Part shown: positions 4,471-63,658 of the stretch, piece by piece
Numbering within the stretch: the first letter of the stretch is position 1
Layout: the number at the start of each line of letters is the position of its first letter
Position numbers and translations under genes: made by a program
The notes under the pieces: generated by a model
Database searches by the model: none
What the model saw: only the letters and a program-made list of their open reading frames with translations
What the model was told of the DNA's origin: nothing
DNA from: a virus
IMG/VR virus record: IMGVR_UViG_3300042384_000211
Span: 1 to 64,000 of that record
Strand: one strand, 5' to 3'
DNA: 64,000 bases

Positions 4471-6780
4471 TTATAATACAATATAACCGTGTTCGTCAAC
4501 TGTTTTATCTTCTAACAACTCCACAGTCACCGGTGGAATAACAATAAATTTTACCTGTTCATCGGCCCAGTCTACAGTAACAACACTGCCTTGGACCATA
4601 TGTTCAAACAACATTTTCTTACTTAACGGAACTTTAATAAGCTCATTGATCTTACGTGACAGCGGACGTGCGCCCATTGCAGGTTCGAAACCGACTTCTG
4701 TTAGATGATCAATCAATGATTCGGTAGCACGTAGTTTGATAGATTTTTCAGCTAACAGTAAGTTAAGTTCATTGATAAACTTAACAACAATTTTTTTCAT
4801 TGAAATTTTGTTTAGGCTATTAAACTTAACCACAGCATCTAAACGATTACGGAACTCTGGGCGGAAGAATTTCTTAACAGCTTCATCGTCTTCACCCGTT
4901 TTGGCCAGATCACGACCAAAGCCAATGTTGTTACGCTCATTGTCTGCAGCACCTAAGTTTGACGTTAAGATTAAGATTGCGTTACGGCAGTCTGCTTTCT
5001 TACCATTGGAACCTGTGATAGTACCTTCATCCATGATCTGTAACAGCAAGTTACTGATATCTGGGTGAGCCTTTTCGATTTCATCTAGCAAGATAATTGA
5101 GTGTGGATTACGTTCAACTTCACTGATTAGTAAGCCGCCGCCTAAGTTGCCATCTTCGTAGCCTACATAGCCCGGAGGAGCACCAATAAGTTTAGCCATG
5201 GCATGTTTTTCTTGATACTCACTCATGTCAAAGCGGATTAGTTTCATACTAAGATTTTCACTTAGTAGTTTACATAGTTCTGTTTTACCAGTACCTGTTG
5301 GGCCTAAGAACAAGAAGTTGCCTACAGGTTTGTTATGTGCTTTCATTCCAGCCTTGGCTACATAGATCTTTTCTAATACTTCTTCGACTGCTGAGTCTTG
5401 CCCATACAAACGATCTTTGATAGTTGATTCTAAGTTAATCAAGTTCTCGCTGGCTTTTTCGCTGACCAAGTTCTCTTTAGGGATCTTAGTGGCTTTAGCA
5501 ATGGTGTCAACAATAGCATCTTTGTCCACAATAAAGTCAGCATTCTTAATTTTTAATCTAGCGCAGCTCATGTCAATTAGGTCAATGGCTTTGTCTGGTA
5601 ATCGTTTGTCTGTTTGATAGCGCATACTTAAATCTACAGCAGCTTCGATAGCTTCGTCTGCAATGGTACCACCGTGGAATTTTTCAAAGTGCTCACGTAG
5701 GCCTGTTAAGATTTCTTTGGCAATGTCTGCGCTTGGTTCGTCAATGTTTAGTTTGTAGAAACGACGCATTAGAGCACGATCTTTTTCAAAGCTCTGAGTG
5801 TATTCTTCGTAGGTAGTTGAGGCAATAACTTTGATTGTGCCGCGGCTTAGAGCTGGTTTAATCATGTTGGCAAAATCTACACTACTTGAATTACCAGAAC
5901 CTGCACCCTGCATTTGATGTGCTTCGTCGATGAATAAGATAGTTTTGCCTTTTTCAGCTAGTGCAGCTAATATATCTTTGAGTTTTTCTTCAAACTCACC
6001 GCGATACTTACTGCCAGCTAACAAATTGCCTATTTCTAAATTGTAGACTGTGTATTCTTTAAGATACTCAGGAACTAGACCGTGAACAATTTTGTGTGCA
6101 AGACCTTCTGCAATAGCAGTTTTACCTACGCCTGGATCGCCAATCATTAGCACATTTGATTTATGACGGCGTGCCAAGACCTGCGCGATTTCTTCAAGTT
6201 CGTATTCGCGTCCAATGACTGGATCTATCTTGCCTTCATTGACCTGCGTGTTAAGATTAGTGCAATATTCGTCTAATATTTGCTCTGATCGATCTTTCTT
6301 AGGTCTATTAGATTCTTTTTTAGTAGCAGACACTAATCTATCTTTATTTTCTTCAGCATAGTATTCTATAAATTGCTTACGATTAATACCATATTTTACT
6401 AAAAAGTATGCCGCGTAACTATTAGTTTCTTGACTAATACTTAGATATAAATCAACAGGCTCCATTTGATCACGAGCACTAAACAGTACCTGAGTAAAAG
6501 CTCGATTAAATACTCTTTCTAAACTGTGTGTTCGTTGTGGTGCAAGATCTTCTTTTTCTGTATTAATTAGATGTTCTTGTTTTCCTAGGTAATCATAAAG
6601 ATCACGTAAAAGATCTTCGACCTCAATACCATAATCGTTTAATGCTTTATTGAAATTTCTAAATTCAACCAATGCTATTAACAAATGTTCAAGAGTTACA
6701 TACTCGTGTTTGTAATCTTTGGCAATGGTACTTGCTGTTTCAATGATATGTTGTATTTCAGGATTTTGATTTAATGACAC
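4471..6780 (-). CDS. clpA: ClpA/ClpC-like AAA+ unfoldase
   Basis: The 769-residue protein matches ClpA in size (E. coli 758 aa) and order: an N-domain with two Clp_N-like repeats (about 1-145), a first AAA+ module with Walker A GDPGVGKT at 214-221 and Walker B ILFIDEAH at 281-288, and a second with Walker A GPTGTGKT at 493-500 and Walker B ILLDEIE near 563-569. Residues 619-621 read IGF, the ClpP-docking tripeptide of ClpX (IGL in ClpA), so it should dock to ClpP; a ClpP gene lies at 62.3-62.9 kb. It would unfold proteins for degradation in the cytoplasm. The start is GTG at 6780 with AAGGA seven bases upstream. A T4-type late promoter precedes it. Confidence 0.93.
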   Translation of the reverse strand: MSLNQNPEIQHIIETASTIAKDYKHEYVTLEHLLIALVEFRNFNKALNDYGIEVEDLLRDLYDYLGKQEHLINTEKEDLAPQRTHSLERVFNRAFTQVLFSARDQMEPVDLYLSISQETNSYAAYFLVKYGINRKQFIEYYAEENKDRLVSATKKESNRPKKDRSEQILDEYCTNLNTQVNEGKIDPVIGREYELEEIAQVLARRHKSNVLMIGDPGVGKTAIAEGLAHKIVHGLVPEYLKEYTVYNLEIGNLLAGSKYRGEFEEKLKDILAALAEKGKTILFIDEAHQMQGAGSGNSSSVDFANMIKPALSRGTIKVIASTTYEEYTQSFEKDRALMRRFYKLNIDEPSADIAKEILTGLREHFEKFHGGTIADEAIEAAVDLSMRYQTDKRLPDKAIDLIDMSCARLKIKNADFIVDKDAIVDTIAKATKIPKENLVSEKASENLINLESTIKDRLYGQDSAVEEVLEKIYVAKAGMKAHNKPVGNFLFLGPTGTGKTELCKLLSENLSMKLIRFDMSEYQEKHAMAKLIGAPPGYVGYEDGNLGGGLLISEVERNPHSIILLDEIEKAHPDISNLLLQIMDEGTITGSNGKKADCRNAILILTSNLGAADNERNNIGFGRDLAKTGEDDEAVKKFFRPEFRNRLDAVVKFNSLNKISMKKIVVKFINELNLLLAEKSIKLRATESLIDHLTEVGFEPAMGARPLSRKINELIKVPLSKKMLFEHMVQGSVVTVDWADEQVKFIVIPPVTVELLEDKTVDEHGYIVL

Positions 6781-6807: not shown

Positions 6808-6815
6808 TATTTATA
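6808..6815 (-). promoter_or_regulatory. T4-type late promoter box upstream of clpA
   Basis: The minus strand reads TATAAATA about 28 nt before the GTG start of the ClpA-like gene and overlaps the end of dnaJ. This predicts separate late expression of the unfoldase. Confidence 0.55.
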
Positions 6816-7641
6816 AGTTAGGTTTGATCGTTTTAAGTATGTTTAATTGATCTGCATCTAGTGTTGGAATTTTTATATGTACTGCTACTATCAAATCACC
6901 TCGGACATTGGTATTCATGTAATATAATCCTTGTCCTGCAAGTCCAAATTTAGCATTATACTGGCACGCCTGAGGTATTTTAACTGAAAATTCTTTGCCG
7001 TCAATGCCTTGAATTGTTCGATCGGCTCCAAGCATAGCATCAATTGCATCTATCTCAATGTTAGCAATTAAGTTGTTGCCATTAATTTCAAATCGTTGAT
7101 CGTGTATTACAGTAATAATAACATATAAATCGCCTCTAGTCAATGTCTCAAACATGTTATCTCCCATACCACTGTATTTGATAGTAGTGCCGTTACCGAC
7201 ACCTCGTGGAATGTTAACATCTATGGTGAATCTATCACCTTTGGTAGTTTGTACACTAATTGTGCGTTTTTGGTCGTTTAGGGTATCGCTTAATTGAATT
7301 GAAAGTTGTACCCGTAGGTCTTTGTTTCTGCGTGGCTGACGCTGTTGTTGCTTATGACCAAATCCCTGCTGGAAGAACTGGCCAAAAATATCATGTACGT
7401 CTCCACCGCCAAAGTGATACTCAAATCCACTGCCTTGATTGCCAAACGGGTTGGGATTATCGTGTTGTTGTCGCTTAACAGGATCAGTTAAGGTTTCGTA
7501 TGCACTTTGAATTTCTTGAAACTTAGCAGTATCGCCACCTTTGTCAGGGTGGTGTTTACTGGCCATAGCTCTATAGGCCTTTTTAATTTCTACTTCTGTG
7601 GCGTTTTTTCCTACGCCAAGGGTTTCATATGCGTCTGTCAT
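6811..7641 (-). CDS. dnaJ: DnaJ/CbpA-like J-domain co-chaperone
   Basis: The J domain occupies residues 1-65 with the HPD motif at 31-33, which stimulates DnaK ATPase activity. A Gly/Phe-rich linker with FGGGDVHDIFGQFF follows, then two C-terminal beta domains. There is no CxxCxGxG zinc finger, so it is a CbpA/type B protein (276 aa). The start at ATG 7641 fits the J-domain N-terminus (MTDAYETLG) and lies only seven bases below a TATAAT box, so the mRNA is predicted to be leaderless. It probably supplies substrates to host DnaK. Confidence 0.92.
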   Translation of the reverse strand: MTDAYETLGVGKNATEVEIKKAYRAMASKHHPDKGGDTAKFQEIQSAYETLTDPVKRQQHDNPNPFGNQGSGFEYHFGGGDVHDIFGQFFQQGFGHKQQQRQPRRNKDLRVQLSIQLSDTLNDQKRTISVQTTKGDRFTIDVNIPRGVGNGTTIKYSGMGDNMFETLTRGDLYVIITVIHDQRFEINGNNLIANIEIDAIDAMLGADRTIQGIDGKEFSVKIPQACQYNAKFGLAGQGLYYMNTNVRGDLIVAVHIKIPTLDADQLNILKTIKPNL

Positions 7642-7648
7642 AGTAAGT

Positions 7649-7677
7649 ATTATACAATAAAAAAGGAGAACTGTCAA
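7649..7677 (-). promoter_or_regulatory. Consensus sigma70 promoter of dnaJ (leaderless)
   Basis: The minus strand has TTGACA (7672-7677), a 17-nt spacer and TATAAT (7649-7654), all consensus. The -10 box ends seven bases before the dnaJ ATG, so transcription should start at or next to the initiation codon. The -35 box lies in the loop and 3' arm of a terminator-like hairpin. Confidence 0.8.
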
Positions 7678-7687
7678 GCTCTCCTTT
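7659..7687 (-). terminator. Terminator after the holin gene, overlapping the dnaJ promoter
   Basis: An 8-bp stem (AAAGGAGA / TCTCCTTT) with a 10-nt loop is followed by a U-rich run. It lies just past the end of the holin -1 frame (7714) and shares sequence with the dnaJ promoter. Confidence 0.7.
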
Positions 7688-7713
7688 ATATTTACTATCA
7701 AATCGATCTGATG

Positions 7714-37959: not shown

Positions 37960-37988
37960 ATTATACAGCCATTTTGCCATCTTGTCAA
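37960..37988 (-). promoter_or_regulatory. Consensus sigma70 promoter of DNA ligase
   Basis: TTGACA (37983-37988), 17-nt spacer, TATAAT (37960-37965), about 19 bases before ATG 37941. The spacer shares AATGG with other promoters in the window. Confidence 0.8.
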
Positions 37989-37989
37989 C

Positions 37990-38166
37990 CTAAGATTTGC
38001 CCCAGTTGACCTGTAACCATATACGTTCCATTACGTAATGAAGTGCCGCTAACACTATATGAATTGCAATTGCTTGCCCGAGTCCTGTCCACAATGCTGT
38101 AATTGCCAAAGCCGCAAATCGATAACTTAGTGTGCGAGCAAGGGTTCGTATATGTGTTTCTGTCAT
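37990..38166 (-). CDS. DUF2061-like small membrane protein (58 aa)
   Basis: The sequence has the DUF2061 layout: ETHIRTLARTLSYRFAAL at the N-terminus, a central membrane helix, and a C-terminal YVMERIWLQVNWG equivalent to the YYLHERVWNRIRWG of the family. It overlaps the halogenase gene by four bases (ATGA). Function of DUF2061 proteins is unknown. Confidence 0.75.
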   Translation of the reverse strand: MTETHIRTLARTLSYRFAALAITALWTGLGQAIAIHIVLAALHYVMERIWLQVNWGKS

Positions 38167-39767
38167 TTATATATTGTGCTTTTTAGAAATGCGTAATGTG
38201 TAGGTAATGCATCGACAACTTTAACAGTTTGTGCTCGGTGTTCGCGCCATGTGTTCCATGTATTAGTAGCCATATCAACGGGTTCGCTGTACTGATTATT
38301 ATTAAAATCTACTCTGCTACTATCAATAACGTTGTGCCCCATGCCTGCAATGATATATGCTATTCCGCCCATGTCGTTGCCTACTACACGCGACCTATGA
38401 AGTCGATATGCAATGTCATTGTATGAACCTAATACGCCAGCTTTAAAATCATACATCTGTTGTGAATATGTAGTTTCTTCACTAACATGATTCCAGTATG
38501 CACTATCATTACGCATAGACAAGGCATAGTGCTGACTGATAAAGTCTTTAAATCCTGTAATTTGTTCACGAAATGCAAAATTAAATGCATCAACATCAAA
38601 CCGCGTAACTCTGCCATTGCGCATTTTGAGTAGATTTACCATCTTAATAATACATTCATGTGTAAGCATTAAACCAGTTGATTCAAGTGGCTCAATGAAT
38701 CCATTTGATAGACCTATACCAATAACATTCTTTTCCCAGGTACGTTCATGTACACCATGTTTAATAGCAATATGTCGAACTTCCATTGCGTCAACACGTG
38801 CAACATCTTGTACTGTCATTCTATTAGATTTTAAATGATTTTTAAATTGTTCTTCTGCTTGTTCTTTTGTTGCAAATTTACTTGAGTAAACATACCCCGT
38901 GCCAAGTCTATCCCACAAAGGGATATTCCAAACCCATCCTGCTTCAATTGCAGTACAACTTGTAACGCACTCCATTTCTTTATCTTTATCGATATATGGA
39001 ATAACACCTGCTACTGCGCTATCATTTAATAGTGTGTCATGGAATGATATGAATGGAACTTTTAATGTTTGTTCGAGTAACAGTGATCTAAAACCCGTAC
39101 AGTCAATAAACAAATCTGCTGTTAGCTCACCATTCTTTTCAGTTACAATAGTATCAATGTGTCCTTTTGCATCCATTGTTGCGGTTAACACGTTATCTAG
39201 AATATGTGTCATACCCACCGGCAAACATAAATGGTCACGTAGATAATTACCAAATAGAGTTGCATCCATATGATATGCTGTGTCGGATTTAAAATTAAAT
39301 CCACGTATTAGATGATCCTCATTCTTTGTCATTTTATTTGCATCAGTCATTATAACCTGATCGTGATAAAATTCTGCAAATGAATATGGATCAATATTAG
39401 GTAGTGTTGCGGCACCAATAAACCATTCCATTAGACCTCTGGGCTTATCAGTAAAGTCATATCTACCAAACGGGTAATGAAATACTTGTGGCTTTTCTGT
39501 TGGGTTTTCTCTAAAATCGATAAACTTAATTGATGTCTTATATGTTGCGTTACAGTGCTTCATCCAATCTTCATCTTTAAGACCAAGATAGTGAAGGAAT
39601 TCGTTTATCTGTCCGATTGTACTTTCGCCTACTCCAATTGTTGGGATATTGGGCGACTCGATTAGAGTAAGTTTAACGTGTGGTAATTGTTTTGATATAG
39701 CAGCCGCTGTCATCCATCCCGAACTGCCACCACCTACAATAGTTATTCTTTCAATTTTGTTTCTCAT
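38163..39767 (-). CDS. Flavin-dependent tryptophan-halogenase-like protein
   Basis: The N-terminus has the FAD dinucleotide-binding GGGSSGWMTAAAIS (residues 12-25), GVGESTIGQINEFL and CNATYKTSIKF with Lys77 matching PrnA Lys79 (the chloramine/active-site Lys). WVWNIPLWDRLGTGYVYSSKF matches the WxWxIP halogenase motif, and IEPLESTGL the active-site Glu loop. Halogenases add Cl or Br to Trp or related compounds using FADH2 and O2; no FAD reductase is seen here. The substrate is unknown. It overlaps the U32-like gene by four bases. Confidence 0.88.
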   Translation of the reverse strand: MRNKIERITIVGGGSSGWMTAAAISKQLPHVKLTLIESPNIPTIGVGESTIGQINEFLHYLGLKDEDWMKHCNATYKTSIKFIDFRENPTEKPQVFHYPFGRYDFTDKPRGLMEWFIGAATLPNIDPYSFAEFYHDQVIMTDANKMTKNEDHLIRGFNFKSDTAYHMDATLFGNYLRDHLCLPVGMTHILDNVLTATMDAKGHIDTIVTEKNGELTADLFIDCTGFRSLLLEQTLKVPFISFHDTLLNDSAVAGVIPYIDKDKEMECVTSCTAIEAGWVWNIPLWDRLGTGYVYSSKFATKEQAEEQFKNHLKSNRMTVQDVARVDAMEVRHIAIKHGVHERTWEKNVIGIGLSNGFIEPLESTGLMLTHECIIKMVNLLKMRNGRVTRFDVDAFNFAFREQITGFKDFISQHYALSMRNDSAYWNHVSEETTYSQQMYDFKAGVLGSYNDIAYRLHRSRVVGNDMGGIAYIIAGMGHNVIDSSRVDFNNNQYSEPVDMATNTWNTWREHRAQTVKVVDALPTHYAFLKSTIYK

Positions 39768-56715: not shown

Positions 56716-58631
<1,916 letters not shown>

Positions 58632-60517: not shown

Positions 60518-60545
60518 ATTATACACGATTTTGCATAATTGTCAA
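60518..60545 (-). promoter_or_regulatory. sigma70-type promoter of the ParB-like gene
   Basis: TTGACA (60540-60545), 16-nt spacer and TATAAT (60518-60523). A leader of about 80 bases leads to ATG 60427. It starts right after the tmRNA terminator. Confidence 0.72.
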
Positions 60546-60560
60546 CCTCTTTTTGGTCGT

Positions 60561-60583
60561 AAAAAACCCGCCGAAGCGGGTTT
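60561..60583 (-). terminator. Intrinsic terminator of the tmRNA gene
   Basis: AAACCCGC-TTCG-GCGGGTTTTTT, a strong Rho-independent terminator at the end of the coding piece of the tmRNA. Confidence 0.92.
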
Positions 60584-60627
60584 GGTTATTTCTGTTGCCA
60601 GGTAAGTCCTACCCCGGTTGTTTTAGA

Positions 60628-60735
60628 CTAAGCTAAAACAGCAGCATCAGTACGTGAACCGAAGCGGAAGCCACGACCCATAGATACTTTTGCTACACCA
60701 TTTGTATTTGCTTTTTCTGCATTTACGATTTTTGC
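60628..60735 (-). other. tmRNA tag reading frame (30 or 35 codons)
   Basis: After the pk1-like hairpin the frame runs to TAG at 60628-60630. Resume codon GCA at 60735 (after TTAAAT) gives 35 residues beginning AKIVNAEK, and a second TAAAT-GCA at 60720 gives 30 beginning AEKANTNG. The tag has a basic Arg/Gly segment (MGRGFRFGSR) and ends TDAAVLA, a protease-recognition type of ending. Ordinary tags are about 8-20 residues, so this is long. Other frames end early or do not give a hydrophobic Ala-ended tail. Confidence 0.75.
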
Positions 60736-60802
60736 ATTTAACGTGACCCCACGTGTTGCCCTTTATCCTATCTCACGCTGTCGAAACCTGGTCAGGCCCA
60801 TT

Positions 60803-60901
60803 AGTAAGTACATTAACCCGTTTGCGCTACGGTAACCCGCGGAAGGTCGTCATCTAGAATGACTCCGCATATATTGATTAAGTGGCATTAATGTACTTAC
60901 T
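60803..60901 (-). repeat. Inverted repeat closing the tmRNA intervening segment
   Basis: AGTAAGTACATTAA (60803-60816) and its exact reverse complement (60888-60901) give a 14-bp helix just beyond the acceptor stem. Extending the stem this way fits the permuted precursor before it is cut into two pieces. Confidence 0.85.
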
Positions 60902-60968
60902 GGTGGACCTGGGCGGAATCGAACCGCCGTCCAACATGCCTTACTTTAAGAGTTATACAACAATTTCT

Positions 60969-61211
60969 TTAATCAGTTGCCTTTTCCATGTAAGGAAGTT
61001 TACCCAACATGTGTAAACGCAACATTTGATGTTTTTTGTCAACCGCCACTTCTTCTGTTACACTAGCACCTTCGAGAACTTCTTTATCTTTAACAGGTGC
61101 CGCATATGAACGTTTGGCTAGTTGCTGTTGATTAACAACATTGCTCTGTTCATCTGCCTGTGCTACACCTACTGCTAATAGTGCTACGAATACTAAACTA
61201 CGTGCTAACAT
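60969..61211 (-). CDS. Secreted small protein (80 aa)
   Basis: The N-terminus MLARSLVFVALLAVGVAQADEQ is a classical signal peptide with AQA cleavage. The mature part (about 60 residues) is charged and lacks Cys. It is followed at its stop by the tmRNA acceptor piece within about ten bases, so it may be co-transcribed with the tmRNA. Start ATG 61211 is preceded by a GAGGAG ribosome-binding site. Role unknown. Confidence 0.72.
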   Translation of the reverse strand: MLARSLVFVALLAVGVAQADEQSNVVNQQQLAKRSYAAPVKDKEVLEGASVTEEVAVDKKHQMLRLHMLGKLPYMEKATD

Positions 61212-61477: not shown

Positions 61478-61789
61478 TTAACTAGTGATGCCAGCACGGG
61501 CTTTAATAGCTGCCAAACTTAAGTTTGGTTTGGTTAACTTAACAGCATAGTTAAGATTGTATTTCTCATCTGCTAGAGTAATAGCTTCTGCAAATTTAGG
61601 ATTCTGCATTAACTCAGTTGTTTTAAGATAGGTCACAGCATCGGCCTTAGACATTGCTTCTGGAAGTTCCATAAGCTCAATATCGGTATGCCCAGCTTTA
61701 ATTAACATCTTAACACGGCTTACAAAGTCATTAGCAAAACGTACTTTAGTAAGACCATCTTGAGTTGAAACACCTGTTACTTTAAACAT
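61478..61789 (-). CDS. Hypothetical protein (103 aa)
   Basis: The product is helical and basic to neutral, with IELMELPEAMSKADAVTYLK and a C-terminal LSLAAIKARAGI. No motif recognised. It is part of a small-gene operon with 61801-61989 and 62000-62194. Confidence 0.65.
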   Translation of the reverse strand: MFKVTGVSTQDGLTKVRFANDFVSRVKMLIKAGHTDIELMELPEAMSKADAVTYLKTTELMQNPKFAEAITLADEKYNLNYAVKLTKPNLSLAAIKARAGITS

Positions 61790-62229: not shown

Positions 62230-62258
62230 ATTATACAATCATTTAACCATTTTGTCAA
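62230..62258 (-). promoter_or_regulatory. Consensus sigma70 promoter (62.2 kb)
   Basis: TTGACA (62253-62258), 17-nt spacer, TATAAT (62230-62235). The spacer (AAATGGTTAAATGATTG) is almost the same as at 63630-63658. Confidence 0.82.
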
Positions 62259-62264
62259 CCAAAA

Positions 62265-62885
62265 TTAGCGTTTAGTAATAACCTCATCTGCTAGACCATA
62301 TGCTACTGCTTCGTCGGCACTTAAGAACGTATCAAACTTCATTGCTTCGTAAAGTTCATCATATGTTTTGCCAGCCGTGTTATGACGTGCATATAGTTCT
62401 GTTAAGCGTTTGTTAATGCGCACTGACTCTTCAAAGCTACGTTTAGCATCTTCAAACTGTAGATCTTGTACGTGTACTGAACCACGTGTGCCCGGAGTAC
62501 CCGAACTAACACGGTGAATCATTGTACGTGCTTCTGGCAATACAATACGCTTGCCTGCGGCTCCTGCTTGAGCTAAGAAACTACCCATTGAACATGCTTG
62601 TCCAAGTACAATAGTTGATACATCACATTTAATAAACTGCATTGTATCATAAATTGCTAAGCCAGCAGTTACGCTACCACCCGGGCTATTGATGTAAAAC
62701 AAAATGTCTTTCTCTGGGCTTTCGCTTTCTAAGAACAGCATCTGCGCTACAATTAAACTAGCAGTATGCTCGTTAACATCAGTATCCAACATGATGATAC
62801 GATCTTTAAGTAAGCGTGAATAAATGTCGTAGCTACGTTCGCCTTGACTTGTACGTTCTACTACCATTGGGACTAAAGTTGACAT
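62265..62885 (-). CDS. clpP: ATP-dependent Clp protease proteolytic subunit ClpP
   Basis: The 206-residue protein has the ClpP triad: Ser99 in GQACSMGS, His124 in RTMIHRV and Asp185 in KFDTFLS. Full-length ClpP subunits are about 200 residues. It forms tetradecamers that degrade proteins unfolded by ClpA/ClpX partners; the ClpA-like unfoldase at 4.5-6.8 kb has a fitting IGF loop. It may also work with the tmRNA tags. A tiny basic gene overlaps its start by 13 bases. Confidence 0.95.
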
Positions 62886-63008: not shown

Positions 63009-63260
63009 TTAATGACGTTCCTGACGCTCTTTACAAAAAACACAAAGACGCACACCTGGAATTGCAAGACGTCGTGCTAGCGGAATCTCATCACCGCATT
63101 CTTCACACTCTTCTGCACTGGGTTCTGCGGCTTGTTTAGCCAATTGACGTCGAACATTAGCAATAGCATTCATGTTATTATGAATAGCATGAAGTTGTCC
63201 CATTTCTGCTTCTTCTTCATTATTATACGAGAAATCGTCTTGCAAGTCTAGTTCTTTCAT
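63009..63260 (-). CDS. DksA/TraR-type zinc finger protein
   Basis: The C-terminal CEECGDEIPLARRLAIPGVRLCVFC has the C4 zinc-finger spacing of DksA/TraR (C52, C55, C73, C76) with the conserved IPxARRL-type motif. The N-terminal helix is shorter than in full DksA, like TraR and phage homologues. Such proteins bind the RNA polymerase secondary channel and change promoter use, so it may shift host transcription during infection. Confidence 0.9.
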   Translation of the reverse strand: MKELDLQDDFSYNNEEEAEMGQLHAIHNNMNAIANVRRQLAKQAAEPSAEECEECGDEIPLARRLAIPGVRLCVFCKERQERH

Positions 63261-63629: not shown

Positions 63630-63658
63630 ATTATACATTCATTTAACCAAAATGTCAA
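63630..63658 (-). promoter_or_regulatory. Consensus sigma70 promoter (63.6 kb)
   Basis: TTGACA (63653-63658), 17-nt spacer, TATAAT (63630-63635). A leader of about 30 bases follows, with AGGAG before ATG 63596. Confidence 0.82.

Follow-up and report, generated by a model that had tools for sequence, protein, structure and literature searches.

The permuted tmRNA gene and its carrier

The stretch of DNA analysed here (the window) comprises 64,000 nucleotides, positions 1 to 64,000 of the IMG/VR record IMGVR_UViG_3300042384_000211, a virus contig of 140,799 bases. On its minus strand, from 60962 to 60584, a complete circularly permuted (two-piece) tmRNA gene could be identified with Rfam and ARAGORN, consisting of an acceptor piece, an intervening segment and a coding piece. 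A cmscan of the whole window against Rfam assigned 60962..60688(-) to RF04321 (tmRNA_permuted; 97.2 bits against a gathering score of 47, E 1.2e-17) and 61006..60655(-) to RF01850 (beta_tmRNA; 95.3 bits against 84, E 1.3e-27), and no Rfam family other than the tmRNA ones reached its threshold in the window. ARAGORN called a permuted tmRNA at 60537-60993(-) with the tag AEKANTNGVAKVSMGRGFRFGSRTDAAVLA. The RNA encoded by such genes releases stalled ribosomes and marks the incomplete protein for degradation. The original prediction of a permuted two-piece tmRNA gene carried by a phage is borne out by the agreement of both Rfam models and ARAGORN on this contig of 140.8 kb, the Infernal search being a check which it had itself proposed. 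It contained nothing on the length or sequence of the tag, on the RNA cassette between the two pieces or on the neighbouring Clp and chaperonin genes.

The 3' tRNA-like half precedes the 5' half, in the swapped order that had been predicted. The acceptor 3' strand, the T arm and the encoded CCA occupy 60939-60901 (-), where the T arm is canonical (GGCGG-TTCGATT-CCGCC) and the CCA ends at 60901. The coding piece begins at 60799 (-) with a 5' GGG (GGGCCTGACCAGGTTTCGACAGCGTGA / GGGCCTGACC), and its 5' acceptor strand and D arm lie at 60773-60799 (-). The two halves form a 7-bp acceptor stem across the swap (G-C, G-C, G3-U70, C-G, C-G, U-A, G-C), in which all seven pairs, including the previously claimed G3:U70, could be read from the sequence; the G3.U70 pair is read here as the alanine identity pair. 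The resume codon is GCA, and both the tag ORF and its stop in H5 are intact. The H5 hairpin containing the stop codon (GTTTTAG-CTTAGT-CTAAAAC) is found at 60620-60639 (-), and the gene is followed by a predicted intrinsic terminator at 60561-60583 (-), with an 8-pair stem at 60564-60583 which the scan placed on the plus strand and a TTTTTT on the minus strand. The sequence gives strong evidence that the two-piece tmRNA gene is intact. Two more IMG/VR contigs, L006 and L007, which come from other samples, carry the same 6 kb, and with it the gene, at 100% identity.

The genes of the window encode virion structural, tail-fibre, clamp-loader and ligase proteins. The nearest matches of one structural protein in the phage collection are mostly from Synechococcus phages, which suggests that the carrier is a T4-type myovirus. 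A perfect TTGACA-17-TATAAT at 62230-62258 (-) may be the promoter of the operon whose last gene is the tmRNA, and a perfect TTGACA-16-TATAAT is located downstream of the terminator (60518-60545, -). Near-perfect TTGACA-17-TATAAT sites occur 12 times in the window against 1.25 expected, all on the minus strand (e.g. 62230-62258, 63630-63658 and 37960-37988), and some of them are overlapped by a repeat of 36-76 nt that recurs elsewhere in the phage genome. The window also contains a tryptophan halogenase gene (38163-39767, -; phrog_2928, 496 bits).

The tag peptide

The tag ORF encodes 30 residues (60720-60631, followed by a UAG stop, thus 60628-60720 on the minus strand; ARAGORN and reading of the sequence), not about ten, which is the commonest length of tmRNA tags (PMC11915505), and it ends in AAVLA, not in the canonical ALAA. 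Its core KVSMGRGFRF (60661-60690, -) is kept across a phage tag family with about 29 related VKV...GFRFG tags; in the window an A replaces the first V of the VKV motif. A DNA pattern for V-S-M-G-R-G-F-R-F, which permitted T for S-type codons, was found in 25 viral contigs and is part of a tmRNA tag in all of them except L139. The exact K-V-S-M-G-R-G-F-R-F pattern had no match in 84,980 bacterial and archaeal genomes, and a bacterial origin of the tag was rejected on that count. A phage protein as its source was also discarded, since tblastn searches of the phage collection, PDB and the 140.8 kb of the phage itself brought up no convincing match; the whole tag had a chance-level match or none in INPHARED and PDB.

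A scan that was blind to the tag and used the neighbouring gene p103 instead brought up divergent tags, e.g. AKASTLGTVKVAMNKGFRFGSRASEAVAA, AKANTQSGVKVTVGKGFRFGGSKSARTEAAFA and AKASTSGSFKFSGKGVKLASARREAVLA. Two pattern scans of IMG/VR yielded about 100 loci with permuted tmRNAs, although the patterns bias which tmRNAs turned up and the contigs are mostly fragments. The tags at these loci are mostly 8-15 residues long and have 26-31 residues in about 30 of them, duplicates included; these counts are not independent, since identical phages recur in several samples and the loci are related. The bacterial permuted tmRNAs sampled in Burkholderiales mostly have tags of 10-12 residues. One Burkholderiales genome contains a permuted tmRNA (L187, G259:C1:892401-892640) with a tag of 28 residues, GNQPSNLQVMQQFDVPTPANGDQYLNVA, which may belong to a prophage or another element. 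A second long-tag family of phages, ANADTFDFSAMSFTGNTVSGKSKVALAA (L032, L052, L067, L076, L082, L121 and L127), has a pN/pS of 0.33 and a covarying hairpin.

Clp and chaperonin genes in the neighbourhood

Upstream of the tmRNA a ClpP peptidase of 206 residues is encoded (62265-62885, -; NF001368 256.5 bits with a cut-off of 249, CLP_protease 218 bits, PDB 8r05 E 2.6e-65). The aligned Ser-His-Asp positions are present as judged by eye, and the score lies below the stricter TIGR00493 cut-off of 308.6. Its assignment as a head-maturation protease was rejected (86 bits against 256 and 240 for ClpP models). Between ClpP and the tmRNA lies p103 (61478-61789, -), a conserved phage protein which serves as a marker of the phage group, and upstream of ClpP a syntenic DksA/TraR zinc-finger protein is found (63009-63260, -; PF01258, 47.5 bits). 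On the other side of the tmRNA GroES (58338-58631, -; PF00166, 106 bits) and GroEL (56716-58335, -; TIGR02348, 807 bits, cut-off 582) are encoded. The order DksA-ClpP-p103-tmRNA-GroES-GroEL is kept in all ten phage regions with a VKV tag that were examined besides the window, with about 60-80% amino acid identity of GroES/GroEL.

A further gene encodes a full-length unfoldase of 769 residues (4471-6780, -), which is called ClpA-like since its 834.8 bits with TIGR02639 stay below the equivalog cut-off of 993 although all motifs are present (PDB ClpA 1ksf, E 7e-188). It contains two Walker A motifs, KYRG, GYVG and an IGF loop, and the motifs are intact in all copies read; KYRG and GYVG we take to be the pore motifs and the IGF loop to be of the kind that docks ClpP. 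Next to it a DnaJ-like co-chaperone is encoded (6811-7701, -; Pfam DnaJ and DnaJ_C; TIGR02349 200 bits, below the cut-off of 377), and DnaJ adjoins ClpA in every ClpA region read.

ClpP (>210 bits) was found in 19 of 20 records with the VKV tag, the exception being a fragment of 37 kb, and ClpA in all 11 such records above 105 kb. Neither ClpA nor a strong ClpP was found in any of 14 other phage records that bear a tmRNA (50-214 kb). This association stood at 11/11 against 0/14 at first and is given at the level of the clade after the tag-blind sample of the wider group had revealed exceptions: L307 and L308 have ClpAP together with a 14-residue tag, and in L303 and L312 ClpAP is present and no tmRNA was detected in the stretch examined. 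The link between tag type and ClpAP is therefore one with the clade; it appears to follow phage kinship and does not prove function. Acinetobacter phage MD-2021a, which looks like host contamination (tig-clpP-clpX), was dropped. The protein p400 is mosaic and a poor marker of the clade, as relatives that share it at 72-78% showed no tmRNA in the stretch examined.

The intervening segment and the mosaic structure of the gene

The two pieces are separated by an intervening segment of 101 nt (60800-60900, -), which is predicted to be removed and is closed by the stem GTAAGTACATTAA/TTAATGTACTTAC. It contains an RNA cassette, M1 (60830-60886, -), whose core hardly varies among 10 aligned copies and whose closing stem shows compensatory changes and covariation in the same copies. 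None of the records searched has more than one copy of M1, which lies within or just downstream of a tmRNA; M2 and further cassettes alternate with it. M1 has no Rfam match at gathering score, and with E up to 1 the cassettes of six loci gave no credible match. The mosaic extends to the remaining gene: acceptor piece and intervening segment match L033, whose tag is ANDSTYALAA, with 95%, and the coding piece matches L138, whose T arm and segment differ, with 90%. From these comparisons, the segment between the pieces is best described as an exchangeable structured RNA cassette and the tmRNA gene as a mosaic.

Of 67 distinct segments, 8 contain an ORF that has an ATG and a Shine-Dalgarno-like site; some of these ORFs extend into the coding piece, and not all need be genes. 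Such segment ORFs were seen in L030, L042, L052, L077, L079, L103, L118 and L137, also in L144, and several apparently encode membrane peptides. Three loci (L057, L090 and L106) have two structured cassettes in tandem in one segment, with a mini acceptor-like hairpin between them that ends in ACCA or TCA. M1 and another module were found just downstream of the tmRNA, not inside it, at L030:622-725, L070:2634-2736 and L079:2232-2325. L138, L131, L132 and L130 have non-canonical T loops (e.g. GGCAGAA) and altered D loops, AGATTCGA replacing GGTTTCGA, which possibly form a co-varying elbow.

Selection on the tag: peptide or RNA hairpin

Among 25 distinct coding sequences pN/pS is 0.43 for the tag core and 0.95 for its flanks, and the third codon positions are the most variable (0.60 against 0.30 and 0.26), which indicates that the tag core is under selection at the protein level. 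Within the tag ORF RNAalifold predicts a hairpin from 16 tag sequences (60649-60688, -), with some compensatory changes. Because the tag region folds in this way, RNA and peptide may both be constrained.

The position of this hairpin inside the ORF would also fit a long tag that is a by-product, i.e. a hairpin inserted into the coding piece for the sake of RNA structure and merely translated. In L105 a synonymous double change from A-U to G-C preserves a hairpin pair, and the second tag family (FDF..SFTGN) likewise has a covarying hairpin. Against this stand the low pN/pS of the core and the excess of changes at third positions. In divergent members the shape of the hairpin varies and the V/F, K/R and GF(R/K)F classes stay, and in the second family the peptide FTGN.V.G stays in L127 and L121 although some hairpin pairs break. 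We therefore regard the by-product as unlikely. Selection on the peptide maintains the core, and therefore VKV...GFRFG probably has a role beyond that of a plain degron.

Proposed function

We consider it likely that the gene encodes a working trans-translation RNA of the phage which uses host SmpB; the proteins it tags are probably removed by a Clp protease. The tmRNA would be transcribed together with the genes in front of it as one precursor, from which RNase P and 3' processing would excise the 101-nt intervening segment, and the two pieces would remain paired. Host AlaRS would charge the phage tmRNA, and host SmpB (none was found in the phage contig) would bring it to ribosomes that have stalled on broken mRNA and are expected to be common during infection. 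The ribosome would then move to the phage ORF and append the tag of 30 residues with its small hydrophobic tail, and the tagged fragments would be degraded by a Clp protease of the host or of the phage, which encodes ClpA and ClpP. The simplest option would be that the core is recognised by ClpA of the phage itself or by another of the phage's factors; this is a guess that draws on the co-occurrence of tag and ClpAP. The use of host SmpB in trans-translation, as proposed here, follows from known tmRNA biology and from conservation; the delivery of tagged products to a Clp protease we infer. An extended form, in which the tmRNA writes a phage-only address (VKV...GFRFG) on stalled products and the phage's own ClpA-ClpP reads it, would give the phage control of destruction independent of the host; it is rather speculative, and we would not expect it to hold.

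The phage tmRNA could instead compete with or block that of the host. There is precedent for blocking, as the tag-less RNA of phage DS6A is thought to titrate SmpB (PMC4131195; PMC11915505). A decoy, however, requires neither tag ORF nor resume site, stop or H5, all of which are intact here, nor a conserved tag. The intact ORF, the conserved tag and the lack of SmpB, which was not found in any of the 8 phage records checked, favour a working host-SmpB-dependent tmRNA over a decoy, which appears very improbable. Still less probable is a functionless copy of a host gene passively captured by the phage. Related permuted genes do exist in Cupriavidus and other Burkholderiales, but the exact tag core is missing from the 84,980 genomes, and synteny and purifying selection within the phage clade speak against a passive copy as well. 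The gene might also be chiefly a carrier, from which tRNA processing would free the intervening segment as payload; this would be a small structured RNA here and a small protein in other phages. The nearly invariant, single-copy M1, its location, the alternation of cassettes and the segments with putative ORFs would agree with a carrier; however, the tmRNA body and the tag are conserved too and several intervening segments have merely 24-60 nt, so that we regard it as improbable, if less so than decoy or passive copy.

With a lineage-specific, selected tag that is linked to ClpP and chaperonins of the phage itself, the question why phages carry tmRNAs becomes testable. Proteins tagged by the phage and by the host can be distinguished by mass spectrometry, and phage ClpAP and host ClpXP can be compared on the same tag. 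A possible yield is a tag-protease pair distinct from ssrA/ClpXP.

Comparison with known systems

The betaproteobacterial permuted tmRNAs (RF01850; Cupriavidus and other Burkholderiales) share the gene order and the acceptor domain with the window, and that of Cupriavidus also the end stem of the intervening segment. They differ in their short segments and in their tags, mostly ANDExxALAA-like with 10-12 residues, the few longer ones being odd or misread. In one strain, Cupriavidus pinatubonensis HN-2, permuted tmRNAs are present several times, on the chromosomes and on a plasmid (L149, L152, L155 and L157).

Whether permuted tmRNAs of phages had been described was left open by the original prediction. 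They are already published and not new: the OM43 phage Melnitz has a two-piece ssrA, and 53 of 133 distinct phage tmRNAs were called two-piece by ARAGORN (PMC9004378). Melnitz and related marine phages resemble the window in having a permuted tmRNA in a myophage, which in the Melnitz group is common and not universal (PMC9004378). Unlike the window, the tmRNA gene of Melnitz is described with a glutamine riboswitch, and the consulted parts are silent on a family of long tags and on neighbouring Clp or chaperonin genes (PMC9004378).

Clp genes are phage-borne in isolates as well, ClpA/ClpP in PA5oct and Atu_ph07 and ClpAP together with a tmRNA in Phosso. The PA5oct-like Pseudomonas phages (MK797984) have ClpP and ClpA with 64% and 41% identity, ClpS and a gene annotated as chaperonin; neither Rfam model detected a tmRNA above cut-off in PA5oct. 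ClpP, ClpS and ClpA of jumbo phages have been discussed without tmRNA (PMC7824862), and for the Sinorhizobium jumbo phage AP-J-162 a tmRNA, ClpX and DnaJ were reported (PMC11242549). The Sinorhizobium jumbo phage Phosso (PV764938) has ClpA, ClpP and a permuted tmRNA (113 bits) like the window, but an ordinary tag, ANDNVSTKVALAA as read by hand, and its tmRNA and clp genes are far apart. Among open-access papers no literature on the long tag family or its Clp/chaperonin linkage was found. What is unusual here is the long tag, which recurs across a group of large phages beside the phage's Clp and chaperonin genes.
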